The position numbers and the translations under genes were made by a program. Shown one piece after another: positions 572 to 9,102 of a DNA stretch of 9,102 bases. This stretch comes from a bacterium (GTDB lineage: Bacteria > Cyanobacteriota > Vampirovibrionia > Gastranaerophilales > UBA9971). Location of the stretch: positions 1 to 9,102 of the forward strand of contig JBAWVS010000071.1 in the NCBI GenBank assembly GCA_037147175.1. The letters are read 5' to 3'. Below the pieces are notes generated by a model, which ran no database searches, had not been told where the DNA came from, and saw nothing but the letters and a program-made list of their open reading frames with translations. The first letter of the stretch is position 1, and every line of letters begins with the position of its first letter.

Positions 572-1159
572 TTATTGAGTTATGGGGTGTGGGGTTTTAA
601 ATTCCTGTTCTAAATTGTTGATGCCGTGCCCAAAATAAAGAATATTTAATTGCTCTTTAACCCTTTCAGGATCTTCTTGTACCATCATCAAAGCGGTGTA
701 AGCTTCTTTAGGAGAAATAACTCCGTTATAAAAATCAACACAATCCTGAAAAATTAGCCAGGTAAGAAATTTCCCGGGAGTAATTTTGCCGTAAGGAGCA
801 ACAAAATCAATAACATAACCTAAAGGACCGGCTTGCTGAGGAAGCAGAGCGCCGTCATTATCCTGATCAAAAGCTTTTATGTAGACTGAAGCATAAGCCA
901 GACCGTATTTATAATCAGGAACACTTGTTTCTTCATCAACGGGCATATAGGTGATATAAGCGGATGCTAAAGCTTCTTGGGCTTCGTTTCTGGAAGCTTC
1001 TTCAAGCCCGATTTCACCGTTCATAAATTGTCTTACTTTTTTGTCGGCGATTTTTTTGATTTCTTCATAGTATTTAACCACGTTATGAGCGGCATTAGCG
1101 CCTCTGCCTTCAGAAGTTTCCGCGTTGTAAGGTCCGTGCAAATTATTGATTAAAATCAT
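572..1159 (-). CDS. 195-aa protein with degenerate EF-hand-like loops
   Basis: The start is firm: GAGGAG lies 8 nt before the ATG. The protein has no signal peptide or membrane segment, so it is probably cytoplasmic unless exported another way. Residues 98-109 (DQDNDGALLPQQ) match the first half of an EF-hand calcium loop, with Asp at positions 1, 3 and 5 and Gly at 6, but Gln replaces the usual Glu at position 12. Similar half-loops with G-x-[IL] occur at residues 47-54 (NGEIGLEE), 123-130 (YGKITPGK) and 145-152 (NGVISPKE); these lack the acidic first half. Each is followed by a helix-like stretch. Calcium binding is therefore possible at one site and doubtful at the others. I do not recognise a named family. 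It is a single-gene unit ending in its own terminator. Confidence 0.8.
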   Translation of the reverse strand: MILINNLHGPYNAETSEGRGANAAHNVVKYYEEIKKIADKKVRQFMNGEIGLEEASRNEAQEALASAYITYMPVDEETSVPDYKYGLAYASVYIKAFDQDNDGALLPQQAGPLGYVIDFVAPYGKITPGKFLTWLIFQDCVDFYNGVISPKEAYTALMMVQEDPERVKEQLNILYFGHGINNLEQEFKTPHPITQ

Positions 1160-1445: not shown

Positions 1446-1604
1446 GTCATCCTGAGCGAAACGAAGGATCTGCCCGCCTAAGAACAAAACTTATAAGCCA
1501 AATTAACCTGTCATTGCGAGGAAGCTCAAAGAGCTGACGCGGCAATCCATCCGGACTTTAAAACCAAATAGATTTTCACGCTCCTGTTAGTCGCTCAGAA
1601 TGAC
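1446..1604. repeat. MITE-like element with 14-nt inverted ends
   Basis: GTCATCCTGAGCGA at 1446-1459 is matched by an inverted copy at 1591-1604 with 13 of 14 bases complementary. The left arm continues as an imperfect palindrome (ATCCTGAGCG...GAAGGAT). The 39-nt repeat at 1512-1550 is nested inside. No coding capacity is seen, so it would need a helper in trans if it moves. REP-like sequences with such arms are common in several bacterial groups. Confidence 0.55.
1512..1550. repeat. 39-nt REP-like repeat, copy 1
   Basis: It begins CATTGCGAGGAAGCTC and ends GCGGCAATCCAT. A second copy at 5587-5625 has the same length and matches at 36 of 39 positions. CATTGC and GCAAT(CC) near the ends make it partly palindromic. 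Confidence 0.75.
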
Positions 1605-1926: not shown

Positions 1927-4398
1927 GTGAGCTTTTTACCAAAAGTTAGTCGTGTCTTTAGTGCCGCTTTCGTTGCACTAATCGGACTACTGGCTGCATC
2001 AATGCCTTCAATGGCAAGTGAAGCAGATCTTGTAGTTCCAAATTTATCTCAAAATCCGGCAAGCTTCCATTTATTACTTATCGGAATGGGTGTTTGCGTA
2101 GCAGGATTAGTTTACGGGCTTGTGGAATATTTCAACGTAAAAAACAAACCTGCCCACAAATCAATGTTGGAAATAGGAAACCTTATTTTCGAAACCTGTA
2201 AAACATACCTTATCCAACAAGGCAAATTTTTATTAGTACTCGAATTATTCATTGCAGCATGTATCGGATTTTATTTCGGATTTTTGCAGCACATGAAAGC
2301 TTATGAAGTAGCTGCAATCCTTGGAATGTCAGTTGTAGGTATTCTCGGTTCCTATTCAATCGCGTGGTTCGGAATCAGAATGAACACTCTGGCAAACGCA
2401 AGAACCGCATTCGCTTCACTCACAGGAAAACCGTTCCAAATAATGCAGCTTCCTTTAAGAACAGGAATGAGCATCGGACTTTTACTCGTAAGCGTTGAAC
2501 TTTTAATAATGCTTGCAATTTTACTTTTCATACCTGGACACTTAGCAGGCGCTTGCTTTATCGGTTTCGCAATCGGTGAATCACTAGGCGCAAGTGCATT
2601 AAGAGTAGCAGGCGGTATCTTCACAAAAATCGCTGATATCGGTTCTGACTTGATGAAAATCCAGTTCAACATCAAAGAAGATGATCCTAGAAACCCGGGA
2701 GTTATTGCTGATTGTACAGGCGACAACGCAGGCGACAGCGTAGGACCTACGGCTGACGGCTTTGAAACCTACGGTGTAACAGGCGTTGCACTTATCAGTT
2801 TTATTCTTTTAGGCGTTCACGAAGAATTAAAAATCCCTTTACTTACATGGATATTCGTAATGCGTTATTTAATGATAGTAACATCAGTCGTATCTTACTT
2901 CTTGAATAACTTAGTATGCGAATCATTATACGGCAAAAGCAGCAAATTCGATTTCGAAATCCCTTTAACTTCATTAGTATGGGTAACATCAGTTTTATCT
3001 ATCGTAATGACTTTTGCAGTAAGCTACTGGCAGTTAAGTACCTTCTCAAACAACTTGTGGCTGGTACTTTCAATAATAATCAGCTGCGGAACATTAGGAG
3101 CTGCGTTAATTCCTGAATTAACAAAAGTCTTCACAAGCACAAACTCAAAACATACCAAAGAAGTTGTAACCGCATCAAGAGAAGGCGGAGCATCCCTAAC
3201 AATTCTTTCAGGACTTGTATCAGGAAACTTCAGCGGATTCTGGATCGGTTTATCAATCGTTGCTCTTATGGCTGGCTCATATTTCGCAAGCCTGCATCAC
3301 CTTGACGTTATAATGATTTACCCTTCAGTATTTGCTTTCGGGCTTGTAGCGTTCGGCTTCCTCGGAATGGGACCTGTAACAATCGCCGTAGACAGCTACG
3401 GACCAGTTACAGACAACGCGCAATCAGTATATGAACTTTCATTAATCGAAGAAATTCCTAACATCGCCGAAGAAATCAAAAACGACTTCGGATTCGAGCC
3501 TGACTTTGAAAACGGCAAAAAATTGCTGGAAGAAAACGACGGCGCAGGAAATACATTTAAAGCCACCGCAAAACCTGTTCTTATCGGAACAGCTGTTGTC
3601 GGAGCAACCACAATGATATTTTCACTGATTCTTGTAATCAAAAACACACTCGGAGTAAGACCAGAAGACCTACTTAACCTGTTAAATCCTTTCACATTGT
3701 TAGGATTGCTTTGCGGCGGAGCGGTAATATACTGGTTCACGGGCGCATCTATACAGGCAGTATCCACAGGAGCTTACAGAGCAGTAGAATACATTAAAAA
3801 GAACATCAACTTAGACGTTGCAGGCGGCAAAGCTTCAACCGAGAACTCAAAAGAAGTTGTTAAAATCTGTACAGTGTACGCCCAAAAAGGTATGTTCAAC
3901 ATCTTTATCGCATTATTCTCGTTTGCACTGGCTTTTGCCTTCTTCTCCGCGCCGTTTATGACCGGAGCAAACAAAGAAGCACCTGTTGCTTTCTTCGTAA
4001 GCTACCTTGTAGGCATCGCATTATTCGGCTTATACCAAGCAATCTTTATGGCTAATGCCGGCGGATGTTGGGATAACGCTAAAAAAATCGTCGAAACAGA
4101 ACTTTGTGAAAAAGGAACACCTCTTCATGAAGCTACAGTTATCGGCGACACAGTAGGCGACCCTTTCAAAGACACTTCATCAGTTGCAATGAACCCGATT
4201 ATCAAATTCACAACGCTTTTCGGACTTCTTGCAATGGAAATCGCAATCGCAGAAGCTTTCAGACCTTATGCACCTTATGCTGGGGCTTTCTTCTTCGTGG
4301 TTGCACTGGTATTTGTATGGAGATCATTCTATGATATGCAAATCCCCGTTCTCCCCGAAGCTGCTGAAAAAAAAACTGAAGAACTAGCTAACGTATAG
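1927..4398 (+). CDS. hppA: Membrane-integral ion-pumping pyrophosphatase, divergent type
   Basis: The enzyme hydrolyses PPi and uses the energy to pump H+ and/or Na+ across the membrane. The GTG start is supported by AGAGGAG 7 nt upstream. Residues 1-30 look like a signal peptide ending SMA; about 15-16 helices should follow. Family motifs are visible: DIGSDLMK (237-244), EDDPRNP (251-257), GDNAGDSV (265-272), the gate region D277/E280/T281, VDSYGP (488-493), GGCWDNAKK (712-720) and GDTVGDPFKDT (740-750). The usual GKVE after the first motif is shortened and altered. GNTFKA (541-546) has Lys545 where K+-dependent enzymes have Ala, which predicts K+ independence. At 823 aa it is longer than the common 660-730, because of the N-terminus and an acidic insert at about 505-540. 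It resembles the divergent, Na+-regulated H+-pumping clade; the pumped ion is not certain. Confidence 0.95.
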   Translation: MSFLPKVSRVFSAAFVALIGLLAASMPSMASEADLVVPNLSQNPASFHLLLIGMGVCVAGLVYGLVEYFNVKNKPAHKSMLEIGNLIFETCKTYLIQQGKFLLVLELFIAACIGFYFGFLQHMKAYEVAAILGMSVVGILGSYSIAWFGIRMNTLANARTAFASLTGKPFQIMQLPLRTGMSIGLLLVSVELLIMLAILLFIPGHLAGACFIGFAIGESLGASALRVAGGIFTKIADIGSDLMKIQFNIKEDDPRNPGVIADCTGDNAGDSVGPTADGFETYGVTGVALISFILLGVHEELKIPLLTWIFVMRYLMIVTSVVSYFLNNLVCESLYGKSSKFDFEIPLTSLVWVTSVLSIVMTFAVSYWQLSTFSNNLWLVLSIIISCGTLGAALIPELTKVFTSTNSKHTKEVVTASREGGASLTILSGLVSGNFSGFWIGLSIVALMAGSYFASLHHLDVIMIYPSVFAFGLVAFGFLGMGPVTIAVDSYGPVTDNAQSVYELSLIEEIPNIAEEIKNDFGFEPDFENGKKLLEENDGAGNTFKATAKPVLIGTAVVGATTMIFSLILVIKNTLGVRPEDLLNLLNPFTLLGLLCGGAVIYWFTGASIQAVSTGAYRAVEYIKKNINLDVAGGKASTENSKEVVKICTVYAQKGMFNIFIALFSFALAFAFFSAPFMTGANKEAPVAFFVSYLVGIALFGLYQAIFMANAGGCWDNAKKIVETELCEKGTPLHEATVIGDTVGDPFKDTSSVAMNPIIKFTTLFGLLAMEIAIAEAFRPYAPYAGAFFFVVALVFVWRSFYDMQIPVLPEAAEKKTEELANV

Positions 4399-4417
4399 AC
4401 TATTAAAAGAATATACA

Positions 4418-4456
4418 CAAAGAGGCGGACTGAAAAGCCCGCCTCTTTGCTTTTCT
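4418..4456 (+). terminator. Strong intrinsic terminator of hppA
   Basis: CAAAGAGGCGG (4418-4428) and CCGCCTCTTTG (4439-4449) form an 11-bp perfect stem with a 10-nt loop, followed by CTTTTCT. It lies 19 nt after the hppA stop and separates hppA from the next gene, which therefore needs its own promoter. Confidence 0.9.
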
Positions 4457-4551
4457 ATCCCAAATTTTCCGAAAATATTAAAAATAAGGCAATTCTGATA
4501 AATCCTATGTTTTTAATATATTAGAAGGAATTTTAGGAAGAAATAAAACTT

Positions 4552-5577
4552 ATGAACCAAACCATATTAAACAAAGTTACTTCAAGTTTTAACACCCCGA
4601 TAAACAAAGAAAACGAGCAGAATCCACCGCGGATAAACTCGCCAAAACTAAAGCAGCTTGAAAAAGACACCGTCTCTTTCAGCGCAAGACCTTCAACAAA
4701 AAAGATTCAGCACTTTTCTTTAGATATTTTAAAAGCCATTCCTTTTTCCGAGAAAACTCAAAGCTTAAGAGCAGAGGCAGAGCATATATATAACTTTGGA
4801 AAAGGCAAACTCTCAGCATTTAACGACCTTTGCCTCGATATTTTTCCCAACGGAGCCAAGACAACTAGAATTAAGAGTCCCAGATCAATAGAATCAAAAC
4901 TCAGGAACAAAATAAAACAAAATCAGACTAGAGACAAAAATTTAATGAATATTATAGGCGACCTTGCCGGAGCGCGCGGAATAACCGACGGCTCTCCGGA
5001 GGCAACAGACAAAATCGTTAATAATCTTGTTAAAAAAATTGAAGAAAAAGAACTTCAGATAACTTCGATAAGAAATTACAGGGGAACTTATACAGCGCCG
5101 TATTTTTCCCAAAAACATATAGATTTAATTACGGAAGCAAACAGAAAAGCAGGAAACAAAAACATAAAAATACTCAACGGAACCAATTCCATCAAAGAAA
5201 ACGGCTACACCGCAGGCCACATCACGGGTATAACAAAAGACAAATTAAACGTGGAACTCCAGATTAAAGGAAAACTGGTCAACAAAATCGATGAATCGAC
5301 GCATATAATCCACGATCTTTTCGTTGCAAAAGACTCTGCCTGCATCAATTCTCGTAGCAAAAGAAAGCTTTTGGAGCCTGTAATTAAAGCATATAACTCA
5401 TTATCACCTGCTAAAAAAGACAAATACAACAAGTATCTGAATGCTTGCTATCTCGAGGCAAGAAAAGCAGAAATTAACAACAAAAAACTGGTTTTGCCGC
5501 AGCTTATAAACGAAATCCCCGATTGCTTAAACCTTGATAAACTCTGGGATATCGCCCAACAATTCAAACTGTATTAA
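4552..5577 (+). CDS. RelA/SpoT-domain nucleotidyl (pyrophosphate) transferase-like protein
   Basis: The core matches the RelA/SpoT synthetase fold: R106-I-K108 and SIESKLR (112-118) in the ATP-binding region, DLAGAR (137-142) with the metal-binding Asp137, NGYTAGH (217-223) where family members have NGYrSlH with the guanine-stacking Tyr, and VELQIKG (234-240) with the catalytic-type Glu235 and Gln237, then a helix with H251/H254. This predicts transfer of pyrophosphate from ATP to GDP/GTP, or to another acceptor. There is no HD hydrolase, TGS or ACT domain, so it is a small monofunctional type. It is longer (341 aa) than typical small alarmone synthetases (about 200-260): an unstructured N-terminus of about 50 residues ending in DTVSFSARP, a middle insertion (about 145-210), and a helical C-terminus (265-341). 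Start: AGGAAG lies 11 nt upstream, a long spacing. No antitoxin-like neighbour is present. Activity is inferred. Confidence 0.8.
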   Translation: MNQTILNKVTSSFNTPINKENEQNPPRINSPKLKQLEKDTVSFSARPSTKKIQHFSLDILKAIPFSEKTQSLRAEAEHIYNFGKGKLSAFNDLCLDIFPNGAKTTRIKSPRSIESKLRNKIKQNQTRDKNLMNIIGDLAGARGITDGSPEATDKIVNNLVKKIEEKELQITSIRNYRGTYTAPYFSQKHIDLITEANRKAGNKNIKILNGTNSIKENGYTAGHITGITKDKLNVELQIKGKLVNKIDESTHIIHDLFVAKDSACINSRSKRKLLEPVIKAYNSLSPAKKDKYNKYLNACYLEARKAEINNKKLVLPQLINEIPDCLNLDKLWDIAQQFKLY

Positions 5578-5586
5578 CCGCCACGC

Positions 5587-5625
5587 CATTACGAGGGAGC
5601 TCAAAAAGCTGACGCGGCAATCCAT
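5587..5625. repeat. 39-nt REP-like repeat, copy 2, between convergent genes
   Basis: It matches the copy at 1512-1550 at 36 of 39 positions, in the same orientation. It sits in the 64-bp gap between the stops of the RelA/SpoT-like gene and the CxxCxxCC gene. No separate T-tract terminator is visible for either gene, so the repeat may be part of how transcripts end or are stabilised here. Confidence 0.75.
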
Positions 5626-5641
5626 TCAACCAAAACCGCCC

Positions 5642-6286
5642 TCAGGAAAACAATTTTTGATAATCGGGAATATCCATAAATATCCACTCATAAAGCATTC
5701 TGGAATCCCCCATGGGCAACTCCTGAAACGACTCAAGAATCCGCCCGAAACTGATATCGTAAAACTTAGGCTCTGTTTTTATTCCGAAAGCTTCAATTTT
5801 GGCTTTCGAAAAACTTTTTGCCTCGCTATTCCAAACATCTGCATAATTCAAACCCGTGCTGACGCAGTGAGGAAGATGGATTTTAGTTTTCGTATTTTCA
5901 AAATCCCTTGAAATCAAGCCATATGTCCTGCAAATAATAGGACGATAGCTATAAATAGAGCATTTGTCATTTTCAAGAAACGGACAGACATAAAAAAAAT
6001 TATGAACATTCGAGTCATTTTTTAAGAAATTTTGCCTGTTTTTGTATATTTCATGGGCTTTATCTTGCAGGTTCTTTATTTTTTCCTGCGAAAAATGAAG
6101 CTCAAGGCCTTTTTTAAGATACTTATATTCAAGCTCAAAAAGTGGATAATACCCCTTTGTACAGCAAATCCCGCACCCTGCGCTGCATTTAATAAAATCT
6201 TTCTGCTCGTCAAAATAAGAATTTATTTCCTCTGTAAGTTTTGCAAGCTTTAACTGATATTTTTCAAGCACTAAAATTACCTGCAT
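5642..6286 (-). CDS. YkgJ-type CxxCxxCC domain protein (Zn or Fe-S binding)
   Basis: The cysteine pattern is C34-x3-C38-x2-C41-C42, then C101-x7-C109 and C119 in the contexts CPFLEND and RPIICRTYG. This is the signature of the YkgJ/CxxCxxCC family (PF03692), believed to bind zinc or an iron-sulphur cluster; its reaction is not established. A further Cys141 lies in LPHC. There is no signal peptide or membrane segment. The C-terminal 60 residues are not distinctive. The ATG has no ribosome binding site, while a GTG five codons later (position 6271) has CAGG nearby, so the real start may be that GTG, giving 209 aa. It converges on the RelA/SpoT-like gene and is divergent from nothing; upstream lies the terminator of the coat gene. 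Confidence 0.85.
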   Translation of the reverse strand: MQVILVLEKYQLKLAKLTEEINSYFDEQKDFIKCSAGCGICCTKGYYPLFELEYKYLKKGLELHFSQEKIKNLQDKAHEIYKNRQNFLKNDSNVHNFFYVCPFLENDKCSIYSYRPIICRTYGLISRDFENTKTKIHLPHCVSTGLNYADVWNSEAKSFSKAKIEAFGIKTEPKFYDISFGRILESFQELPMGDSRMLYEWIFMDIPDYQKLFS

Positions 6287-6306: not shown

Positions 6307-6322
6307 TTAAATGAAAATAATT

Positions 6323-6364
6323 AAAAAAAACAGGGCGAAAAGCAAAAAAAAAACCTTTCGCCCT
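6323..6364 (-). terminator. Intrinsic terminator after the coat gene
   Basis: On the minus strand AGGGCGAAA and TTTCGCCCT form a 9-bp perfect stem around a 15-nt T-rich loop, followed by eight T residues. It ends the scaffold-coat transcript, 143 nt after the coat stop, beyond both direct repeats. Confidence 0.85.
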
Positions 6365-6411
6365 ATGAGAGAGTTAGTAGGGAGACCTTGTAATAGTAAA
6401 TATATTGAGGT

Positions 6412-6451
6412 CGGCAAAGCCGTCTTTCAGACCGTCACTCCCGCTACGCAA
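6412..6451. repeat. 40-nt direct repeat, copy 1
   Basis: It is identical over 40 nt to 6476-6515, giving a 64-nt period. It contains two small palindromes, CGGC-AAA-GCCG and GTCT-TTC-AGAC, so each copy can fold as two tandem mini-hairpins in RNA. It lies in the untranslated tail between the coat stop and the terminator and is far more GC-rich than the surroundings. Confidence 0.85.
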
Positions 6452-6475
6452 GAGAATGAGTTTGGTCTTCCAAGC

Positions 6476-6515
6476 CGGCAAAGCCGTCTTTCAGACCGTC
6501 ACTCCCGCTACGCAA
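6476..6515. repeat. 40-nt direct repeat, copy 2, overlapping the coat stop codon
   Basis: It is an exact copy of 6412-6451. Its last eight bases, read on the minus strand, supply part of the final codons and the TAG stop (6508-6510) of the coat gene. The 24 nt between the copies (6452-6475) are not repeated elsewhere in the window. Confidence 0.85.
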
Positions 6516-7350
6516 CAGTACAAACAAGTTTAGCAAGGGCATGAGCCAGAACTGTTTTTGCGCCGTAGACATAAAGTCCTCTAACTGCAGTATCGAAGGA
6601 ATCATGAAGCCTTAAAGACTCGATTTCGACTACCTGAGAAGCAAAAGTAACGGCATCATTGGTTCCCGCAAGCACATAGAACTTACCCGATGTAGCAGTA
6701 AAATTAGTGCAAACAAGAACGTCAAGACCTGCAATCTTACCAATAGAGCCTTCTTTCAAGGTTTTATCACCTGTCTGATTAGCCTGAATAAATTCGGGAG
6801 CCTGAATCAAAAGAGCTTCAATGTCGGGATTGATGACAATCCATGGTTTTTGCCCTTTAGAAGTCGCATTAGCTTTCTTAAGCGCTTTTGCAATCGCCAC
6901 AAAGTTGGTATAAATGTTGTCTTTAGTTAATGCAATAGGCGTAGAATCAGTTCCAATAATATTTCCTGAAGGCACATCAACATGTTTGCCGAGCAAAAAC
7001 GAGTCTTTCGCCAAATCAATCGCCACTTTTGCCCTTTCAAGATACCCTGCCATAATATCGACATTTGACTGGGCTTTTGAGATATCGTCAACTTTAAAAG
7101 CAAAATACTTTTTCTGATCGATTAAAAGCGTGTCAGTGGGAGAAGTAAGGTCGTCATAAGTAATAGAACCCGAGTAATCTTTGACGGTAACATCCCCAAA
7201 AGTCCTAATATGTACAGTATCGCCGGAGTTTTTAATTTCACCCTCATAATTTCGGTTGACGCACTGCATCATAACGCCTGACTTGTCGAGAAGCGCGGTT
7301 AATTTTTGCGACCACACTTCAGAGATAAAATTTGATAAATCCTGTGTCAT
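6508..7350 (-). CDS. Phage major capsid protein, P22 coat family (HK97 fold)
   Basis: This is the shell-forming subunit of a tailed phage head. The family pattern is clear from the N-terminus: FISEVWSQKLTALLDKSGV (8-26), NRNYEGEIKNSGDTVHI (32-48), VKDYSGSITYDDL (56-68), IDQKKYFAFKVDDI (77-90), and near the end the SFDTAVRGLYVYGAKTV stretch (252-268) typical of the C-terminal part. At 280 aa it looks complete for the short P22-type coats of prophages. AAAGGA lies 10 nt before the ATG. It is the second gene after the scaffold-like gene, 38 nt apart, as in phage head operons. Its last codons and stop fall inside a 40-nt direct repeat, so the extreme C-terminus may have been reset by repeat insertion. 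No portal, terminase or tail gene is in the window. Confidence 0.9.
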   Translation of the reverse strand: MTQDLSNFISEVWSQKLTALLDKSGVMMQCVNRNYEGEIKNSGDTVHIRTFGDVTVKDYSGSITYDDLTSPTDTLLIDQKKYFAFKVDDISKAQSNVDIMAGYLERAKVAIDLAKDSFLLGKHVDVPSGNIIGTDSTPIALTKDNIYTNFVAIAKALKKANATSKGQKPWIVINPDIEALLIQAPEFIQANQTGDKTLKEGSIGKIAGLDVLVCTNFTATSGKFYVLAGTNDAVTFASQVVEIESLRLHDSFDTAVRGLYVYGAKTVLAHALAKLVCTVA

Positions 7351-7388
7351 AATTAATTTTTCCTTTCTTAAAAAAATTTATACCCGAA

Positions 7389-8081
7389 CTACTTAATCAG
7401 CCCTTTGTTTAACTGCTCAAAAATCGTCTTTTCGTTCCTGACAAAGTCATCAGGGGACATTGACTTAATTTCAGAGCGAGTAAAGATTTTATTCGATTGA
7501 TAATGAGGAACAGCGGAGTTCACCGCGGAAGTCATACGCGCTTTAGCAGAATCATTCTGGTTTTTCAGATTCAAAGCATCGTCATAACCTGCCCTGTAGA
7601 TGTTTGCCATATGATCCATGGCATCATGAAACCCCTGACTTCTCAAACTCAAATTCGGATCCAAATCCAGATCGATAAAAGCCTGAATAGCCTCTTTAAT
7701 AACGGGAACAGCGTACAAATCGCCGTATTTTGCGTGAACTTCCCTGATAAGAGCCTCGTTATCCAACTGAAGATTCAAGTGATTATTGACTATTTGCTGC
7801 TTAAGCCAGTTATTTGCCGCATCAACTCCGGAAGCATGAAAAATATTTTCATAGGTATTTTTCATTTCCTGAGTAATTTCTTTAGGGCTAAAAGAGTTTT
7901 GAGGGGTTACGGCTTGCTGATTATTAGCAAAATTGGCTCTAGAAGCCCCTTGCTCTGCCTTTTGCTCTTGTCCGTATTGACTTGAAACTGCCTGTCCTTG
8001 AGGGGACAACTGACTTTGTGCGGGGATTTGCGCTTTTCCACCTGAAAACACCTCCATTTGATTTTGATTTAAATTATTCAT
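7389..8081 (-). CDS. Putative phage scaffolding protein
   Basis: I chose the ATG at 8081 because GGAGG lies 4 nt upstream; a longer frame from 8123 would translate a terminator hairpin. The 230-aa product has a Gln/Asn/Ser-rich, poorly structured N-terminus (about 1-65), a helical, charged middle, and a C-terminal motif of type FTRSEIKSMSPDDFVRNE...L..GLIK (about 199-230). A disordered, Gln-rich start followed by helices, and position directly before a P22-type coat gene, suit a scaffold that guides capsid assembly and is then removed. The C-terminal helix-turn-helix of scaffolds binds coat; the basic tail here fits. The identification rests mainly on position and composition, not on strong sequence motifs. 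A minor virion protein is the main alternative. Confidence 0.65.
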   Translation of the reverse strand: MNNLNQNQMEVFSGGKAQIPAQSQLSPQGQAVSSQYGQEQKAEQGASRANFANNQQAVTPQNSFSPKEITQEMKNTYENIFHASGVDAANNWLKQQIVNNHLNLQLDNEALIREVHAKYGDLYAVPVIKEAIQAFIDLDLDPNLSLRSQGFHDAMDHMANIYRAGYDDALNLKNQNDSAKARMTSAVNSAVPHYQSNKIFTRSEIKSMSPDDFVRNEKTIFEQLNKGLIK

Positions 8082-8103
8082 AAAACCTCCTTTTTTTGAG
8101 TAC

Positions 8104-8138
8104 AAAAAAGCCCCCGAACTCAATAAAGTCGGGGGCTT
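8104..8138 (-). terminator. Intrinsic terminator of the ankyrin gene
   Basis: On the minus strand GCCCCCGA and TCGGGGGC form an 8-bp GC-rich stem, extended by flanking AA/TT pairs, around an 11-nt loop, followed by six T residues. It starts 16 nt after the ankyrin stop. Its T-tract ends only 22 nt before the scaffold start codon. Confidence 0.9.
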
Positions 8139-8154
8139 ATAAAATTTAAAATAT

Positions 8155-8862
8155 TTATTTATTTTGATAATCCACTAATAATTTTTCGATTTCAGTGTAT
8201 TTTTTCTTATGTGCTAATTTTATATTTGAAGGGAGAAACAAAGGCTTTTTAGTTATATCAGCGTTTTTTTCAAGCAGCATTTTTACAACTTCAGCCTGAT
8301 TTCTTCTTATAGCGATTCTCAAAGGCGTGTATCCTCTTACATAAGTTAGTCCCTTATTAGGATTAGCTCCTTTTTTTAATAATAAAACAGCGATTTCAGG
8401 CTGATTTTTATAAATTGCTATATAAAGAGCAGACTCTCCTGACGCACTGGTATTTGGGTCTACACCTTTTTCTATCAGCAATTTTGCAACTTCAGGCTCT
8501 TTTCCTACAATTGTGTAAAGCAAAAGGGGAATTCCCATAATTTTGGTATTTATATTTGCGCCTTTTTCTATCAACAATTTTGCAATTTCAGGCTGCTTTT
8601 CTGAAAAAGCGTATATAATTAGAGGCATTCCTGCATATTTATTATTTACATTCATCCCTGCATCAATAAAAAGACCCAAAGTATTAATATCGCCCTCTTT
8701 TATGCAATTTATTGCCTGTGTTGCGCTTTCATAATTTAAGCTTGAATCTGCTAATTGCCTTCTTGCTTCTTCTTTTGAAACCGCAAAAACAGAATTTGCA
8801 CAGAAAAAGAACAAAAATAAGCTTAAAATCGTTGTTCTAATAACAAAACTTTTTAATTTCAT
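8155..8862 (-). CDS. Exported ankyrin-repeat protein
   Basis: The start at 8862 is chosen because AGAGGA lies 8 nt upstream and because it gives a clean signal peptide (residues 1-27: MKLKSF, a long Leu/Phe core, then ANSVFA); an ATG at 8889 inside the preceding gene would add nine charged residues. The mature protein is made of about five or six ankyrin repeats (46-77, 79-110, 111-142, 143-177, 178-206 and a partial one at 210-235). Typical helix pairs such as EIAKLLIEKGANIN are present. No enzyme domain is attached. It is predicted to be secreted to the periplasm or outside, and to bind a protein partner. It is the second gene of an operon, 4 nt after the gene to the right, and ends at the terminator at 8104-8138. 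Ankyrin proteins occur in host-associated bacteria, but a role as an effector is only a guess. Confidence 0.85.
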   Translation of the reverse strand: MKLKSFVIRTTILSLFLFFFCANSVFAVSKEEARRQLADSSLNYESATQAINCIKEGDINTLGLFIDAGMNVNNKYAGMPLIIYAFSEKQPEIAKLLIEKGANINTKIMGIPLLLYTIVGKEPEVAKLLIEKGVDPNTSASGESALYIAIYKNQPEIAVLLLKKGANPNKGLTYVRGYTPLRIAIRRNQAEVVKMLLEKNADITKKPLFLPSNIKLAHKKKYTEIEKLLVDYQNK

Positions 8863-8866
8863 ATAT

Positions 8867-9102
8867 TTATTCCTCTTGCAAAGCTTCATTTACTCTGGTA
8901 ATAACGAATTCCTGACTGTTTTCAGGGTCGTAACAGTTAAATTTAATTGAAGGCTGACGATTTACAGCCTGTGTTTTATCAAAAATAGCTTTTACTTCAA
9001 TAAATTTACCTGATTCAAGCGTTAATTCCTGTTTAGGCAAATCGCTAATATTACTTTTAGCTTCTTTTTTAATATTATTATTTTTTACAGATAATTCTGT
9101 TA
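8867..9102 (-). CDS. C-terminal part of an unrecognised protein (cut by window edge)
   Basis: A frame open from the window edge gives 77 residues ending KFNCYDPENSQEFVITRVNEALQEE and stopping at 8867-8869. Nothing in it is recognisable: the start is Lys/Asn-rich, then comes a beta-like, charged stretch with a single Cys, and a helical tail. The frame is supported by its tight link to the ankyrin gene: the ankyrin ribosome binding site lies within its last codons and the gap between stop and start is 4 nt. It is therefore the upstream gene of the same operon. Its function should be sought in the sequence to the right. Confidence 0.7.
   Translation of the reverse strand, partial: TELSVKNNNIKKEAKSNISDLPKQELTLESGKFIEVKAIFDKTQAVNRQPSIKFNCYDPENSQEFVITRVNEALQEE

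Follow-up and report, generated by a model that had tools for sequence, protein, structure and literature searches.

The stretch of DNA analysed here (the window; 9,102 bp) is an entire contig (C71) of a Gastranaerophilales genome (G000; 2.66 Mb in 109 contigs), and towards its right end the reverse strand carries a gene for a major capsid (coat) protein with a scaffold-like frame directly upstream (Table 1). The coat frame matched two major head protein families (PHROG 267, E = 2.9 × 10−51; PHROG 283, E = 4.4 × 10−17). Family searches returned no match of its own for the scaffold frame, which aligns with the proteins at the scaffold position of relatives and has a conserved C-terminus; the ATG at 8081, after AAAGGAGG, is a likelier start for it than the TTG at 8123. 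The pair lies between two intrinsic terminators, both folding far better than shuffled sequences, and beside an ankyrin-repeat gene; coat, scaffold, terminators and ankyrin gene, all described in an earlier note made from the window's letters, proved real. Downstream of the coat gene follow a CxxCxxCC protein (5642-6286), a RelA/SpoT-domain protein and a proton pyrophosphatase, and the direct repeat at the coat stop codon has no other copies in the G000 genome.

Table 1 Features of the coat and scaffold region (positions in the window)
Feature	Position	Strand	Details
Intrinsic terminator 3′ of coat gene	6322..6366	-	Hairpin of −20.9 kcal/mol, z −6.8 versus shuffles, then U run
43-nt direct repeat, 2 copies	6412-6454 + 6476-6518	.	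98% identity; 64 nt apart; one overlaps coat stop codon
Major capsid (coat) protein, HK97 fold	6508..7350	-	280 aa, intact frame; evidence from PHROG 267, AlphaFold model, dN/dS
Scaffold-like protein	7389..8081	-	230 aa from ATG at 8081; frame open to 8123; immediately upstream of coat
Intrinsic terminator, ankyrin/scaffold gap	8103..8137	-	−23 kcal/mol for stretch, z −4.9 versus shuffles, then U run
Ankyrin-repeat protein, N-terminal hydrophobic stretch	8155..8889	-	Ank_2, E = 6.3 × 10−25; upstream cluster neighbour
Frame truncated by contig end	8867..9100	-	75% identity over 68 aa to part of G001 401-aa ankyrin protein

The earlier note had the pair standing alone, but this isolation is an assembly artefact: nothing of the 9.1-kb contig lies outside the window. 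In a sibling species (G001), whose coat is 94% identical to that of the window, the pair sits at the end of a ~31-kb cluster on a single 35,155-bp contig, where it shares contig and strand with terminase, portal, nozzle and adaptor genes. There, p7 comes first, followed by adaptor, nozzle, GNAT, holin and amidase; a stretch of ~15 kb with other genes leads on to p12, the terminase large subunit (TerL) and portal, after which come small genes, the ankyrin gene, scaffold, coat and pyrophosphatase. The truncated frame at the edge of the window (8867-9102), previously listed as an unrecognised gene, corresponds to part of the ankyrin homologue at the same place in G001. The same packaging genes occur in G000 on contig C42 (terminase, 3806-5074; portal, 397-2223; nozzle, 20105-21541), and when placed on the G001 contig, C42 and C71 fall next to each other with a gap of ~1.7 kb; their linkage in G000 is thus inferred from the sibling. 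With the G001 contig and C42 in hand, an orphan pair was rejected, and gene order indicates that the pair is the cut-off end (the last two genes) of a larger phage-derived DNA-packaging cluster.

By sequence, this cluster codes for a terminase large subunit, a portal, a scaffold, an HK97-type coat, an adaptor, a P22-gp10-like short-tail nozzle, a holin and an amidase. Motifs in the terminase are assigned as Walker A and Walker B (motor) and as nuclease-type. A match to the cyanophage A4 portal (PDB 9k09) was obtained for the portal family; SU10_portal and Terminase_2 are the families matched by the portal and the small terminase (TerS), respectively, of a relative, G024. In a Foldseek search, an AlphaFold model of the coat (pLDDT 84) had phage capsids as its top matches, Che8 being the best (E = 3 × 10−15), with encapsulins lower, and the G000 nozzle model matched the tail nozzles of the short-tailed phages Pa223, P22 (gp10), SU10, Pam1 and A4. 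The models thus predict an HK97-type coat and a P22-gp10-type short-tail nozzle. The label 'P22-type', previously attached to the coat, fits loosely: no P22 coat family was matched and the nearest solved relative is the Che8 major capsid protein, the P22-like part being the tail nozzle. Together, the gene set and fold models suggest that a DNA-filled, short-tailed particle is specified, and not a hollow compartment.

A comparison of the pair among relatives, proposed earlier, revealed strong purifying selection on the coat (dN/dS = 0.035) and a ratio of 0.23 for the scaffold (Nei–Gojobori counts, G000 versus G001, dS about 0.7-1.9). In the same comparison, dN/dS was 0.059 for TerL, 0.106 for the portal, 0.087 for the adaptor, 0.098 for the nozzle, 0.12 for the amidase and 0.16 for the holin, with 0.136 for the neighbouring pyrophosphatase. 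Most ratios for pairs of Gastranaerophilaceae genomes were similar or lower, at dS values that were often saturated. Substitution patterns therefore indicate that the cluster genes are maintained by protein-level selection.

Across the order, a group of non-photosynthetic cyanobacteria (Melainabacteria), the coat gene was found in 88 of the 146 relatives, nearly always in single copy, the portal in 90 and the nozzle in 84, and a terminase search at E 1e-40 across 386 genomes of the phylum gave matches in this order only. Occurrence is patchy in the window's own family (f1), where only 2 of 9 genomes have the coat. In the Gastranaerophilaceae (f2), the genes form a compact block of ~10 kb (p12, LuxR-type regulator, amidase, nozzle, coat, holin, scaffold, adaptor, TerS, p7, GNAT, portal, TerL and p13), with flanks common to different genera (several have a ZIP transporter and a radical-SAM gene there, g15 the DNA polymerase III alpha gene). 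TerS of f2 matches Terminase_2 over 1-133 of 141 positions, with the N-terminal DNA-binding part kept; no TerS was found in f1. Elsewhere the genes are dispersed: in one genome (G014) coat, scaffold and amidase lie on a different contig from terminase, portal and nozzle, and in another (G128) the terminase has moved away from the cluster. Within f2, the distances of eight cluster genes track those of RpoB (r 0.50-0.83) and genera are recovered both in the RpoB tree and in a concatenated cluster tree; co-inheritance with the host is accordingly indicated by the trees within Gastranaerophilaceae and falls short of proof across families. A second version of the cluster, more distantly related and in some genomes divided between two contigs, is present in two genera (g29 and g30; G105, G143, G085 and G131; L174 and L179-L182) and groups with a genome of another family (G011) in the concatenated tree.

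Relatives of the cluster were also recovered from what look, by gene content, like real phages. On two IMG/VR contigs, L050 and L051, the same packaging genes stand next to replication-type ones (read by eye). Together with a copy on contig C1 of genome G091, these contigs share homologous TerL (distant in L051), portal, coat, adaptor and nozzle genes with the chromosomal clusters, and differ from them in their replication-type genes and in the order TerL-portal-scaffold-coat-adaptor-nozzle. Genome G091 holds the compact block as well as this second, phage-ordered copy (L130, L217), which lies beside recombination- and methylase-like genes and is apparently a real prophage of the same lineage. 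In the TerL and nozzle trees, L050 adjoins the f1/f4 cluster; in the coat tree, its coat (8318-9160, L214) falls inside the window's genus and is 89% identical to the window's coat, whereas its portal is only 39% identical; this mismatch and the tree position suggest that coat genes moved between phages and chromosomal clusters. The f1/f4 and f2 clusters may represent separate domestications. A single vertical inheritance across the order was withdrawn as a proven claim, as the gene trees place L050 and G091:C1 among the cellular clusters.

We consider that the cluster is a domesticated podovirus-type packaging cluster working like a gene transfer agent (GTA), a reading to which we assign a probability of about 0.5 and which is the best supported of the options raised for the pair in the earlier note. 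Scaffold and coat would assemble a procapsid, into which the terminase, acting by a headful mechanism, would drive host DNA via the portal; the filled head would then be closed by adaptor and nozzle with a short tail, holin and amidase would lyse a few producer cells to release the particles, and these would carry DNA to kin. Beyond the encoding of, and selection on, these proteins, every step of this scheme is inferred, and we accordingly file the cluster as GTA-like and not as a proven GTA, with particles, host-DNA cargo and transfer all predicted from genes. Its support comes from the contiguous G001 cluster and C42, purifying selection, the nearly constant single copy, the shared flanks and distinct gene order of the f2 block, RpoB tracking within f2, dispersal in G014 and G128, the lack of a recognised integrase and the Vampirovibrionales relative described below, and it is opposed by the retained DNA-binding part of f2 TerS, the presence in 2 of 9 f1 genomes, the closeness of L050 and the replication-O-like and excisionase-like genes. 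As expected of a GTA, phage-derived structural and packaging genes lie in the chromosome. As to genes for self-transfer, no integrase was recognised in a direct scan of the larger C42 proteins or among the 25 most frequent flank families, yet the f1 cluster contains genes for a replication-O-like protein and for an HTH protein resembling excisionase, which were assigned to these two frames through matching HTH_36 and HTH_17 hits. Known GTAs are reported to have a small terminase without the specific DNA-binding domain (PMC11841831), a feature that is not a formal criterion and that f2 TerS does not share.

These O-like and excisionase-like genes fit a different, possible though somewhat doubtful, explanation, namely a lineage-specific temperate prophage of this genus, related to L050, whose missing phage genes lie in assembly gaps or went unrecognised. 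In both L050 and L051, the packaging genes shared with the cluster are accompanied by replication-type genes; TerL, nozzle and coat of L050 are close to those of f1/f4; and the patchy occurrence in f1 would be in keeping with such a phage. However, of the integrase, repressor and attachment sites that mark ordinary temperate prophages, neither an integrase nor a repressor was recognised; in both species ~15 kb of other genes, several of them on the opposite strand, separate two packaging blocks; the pyrophosphatase has remained the neighbour in both at dS about 1; and the genes are single copy per genome across many genera of the order. The earlier note had held that portal and terminase genes upstream would make the locus an ordinary prophage. 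Both genes are indeed upstream in G001, but the conclusion does not follow, because no integrase was found, there is one copy per genome over many genera, and the gene order of the f2 block is unlike that of related phages.

It is unlikely, in our judgement, that the cluster instead encodes a PBSX-like defective phage or killer particle, or belongs to a satellite-type element, and is maintained to kill rivals or to move another element and not for gene transfer among kin. The Terminase_3 and Terminase_2 families recognised here also occur in PBSX, and the set includes lysis genes, but no tail-fibre specificity switch, immunity gene or partner element was recognised next to the cluster. A decaying prophage remnant is less probable again: the portal frame of G001 is interrupted in its assembly, beside ambiguous bases, and the G000 ankyrin gene is split when compared with its G001 counterpart, but the head and tail genes of G000 all have open frames under purifying selection, and neutral decay is contradicted by the dN/dS values. 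Least probable, and rejected on gene content, is the lone, empty, encapsulin-like shell kept by the host that had been proposed earlier: encapsulins share the HK97 fold with the coat and appear among its structural matches below phage capsids, but terminase, portal, adaptor and nozzle are conserved and selected together with the coat, the scaffold is of phage type and no cargo enzyme was recognised beside the coat. We know of no encapsulin system with a portal or a terminase.

Few GTAs are known outside the Alphaproteobacteria. RcGTA and other alphaproteobacterial GTAs resemble the GTA-like cluster proposed here in that their packaging genes are phage-derived, single-copy, dispersed and under selection; they carry no self-transfer genes, and they differ from it in their capsid and tail families; to our knowledge, none is built on a short-tailed P22/SU10-like set. 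One podovirus-like, GTA-like element has already been reported, FpGTA of the gut bacterium Faecalibacterium, with a phage-derived 10.5 kb head-and-packaging operon (TerS, TerL, portal, scaffold and capsid), a separate locus for lysis and tail genes, and a TerS said to be without an obvious DNA-binding domain (PMC12946183). By description, it has the same podovirus-like kind of head and packaging genes in another phylum. Its TerS is unlike that of Gastranaerophilaceae, which keeps the DNA-binding part, and its particles and packaged DNA were demonstrated (PMC12946183), whereas those of the present cluster are predicted. We found no paper naming both Gastranaerophilales and gene transfer agents. 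If our reading is right, the cluster would be a second podovirus-like case, spread over the Gastranaerophilales and with a relative in the predatory Vampirovibrio, and would make gene exchange testable in a class that is hardly cultivated.

The relative just mentioned is also relevant to a published report in which a virus is said to provide its host with essential ribosomal proteins. In an annotated phage collection, the nearest coat (49%) is that of Microcystis phage MaAM05/PhiMa05 (MW495066), a record of 273,876 bp with annotated rpoD, smc, topA, ftsH, several tRNA synthetases, TCA-cycle enzymes, flagellar-motor genes and ribosomal proteins, which a 2026 paper interprets as a virus that donated ribosomal proteins to its host, noting that an integrase was not found (PMC13157829). 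Over 256 kb, the record is colinear with a Vampirovibrionales contig (G442:C2) at 86% identity; that contig runs at least 7 kb past the left end of the record and ends <50 bases from its right end. The sole packaging genes recognised in the record form a ~10 kb block homologous to the present cluster. The simpler reading of this alignment is that MW495066 is a fragment of a Vampirovibrio-like chromosome, and such a bacterial fragment may underlie the virus reported to have six ribosomal proteins (PMC13157829). Related blocks occur in Vampirovibrionales chromosomes, with portal, scaffold, coat, p7, adaptor and nozzle within 10 kb, and differ from the present cluster in that the coat is only about 50% identical and no Terminase_3 was found in the genomes with the block. 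More tentatively, the Vampirovibrionia (Gastranaerophilales and Vampirovibrionales) could carry, through much of the class, a selection-kept, podovirus-derived GTA that still swaps coat genes with live phages, and a piece of chromosome with this GTA would then have been published as a jumbo phage coding for ribosomal proteins. Adjacency to the pyrophosphatase was dropped as a class-wide marker: f1 and the PhiMa05 record have this gene at opposite ends of the block, and none of the Gastranaerophilaceae loci viewed had it next to the block. Likewise, c16, which follows the terminase in Gastranaerophilaceae, was rejected as a receptor-binding protein: it had no tail match, and the related PhiMa05 frame is far from the block.

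Several smaller observations concern the window itself. A 195-aa protein with no assigned function is encoded beyond the pyrophosphatase in the window (572-1159) and, with 77% identity, at the opposite end of the cluster in G001 (C53, 1181-1768), a difference in position that marks a paralogue or a rearranged region. A dispersed intergenic repeat (GCTCAAAGAGCTGACGCGGCAATCC-like) has copies in the window (1509-1550 and 5585-5630) and on G001 C53 (32216-32287), the latter copy sitting between scaffold and coat. Finally, an N-terminal motif like DTVSFSAR or VISFSGR, at about residues 40-50, is common to otherwise unrelated proteins in the window (4552-5577) and on C42 of G000 (12417-15035 and 15092-16318), and is possibly a sorting or targeting signal of the order.
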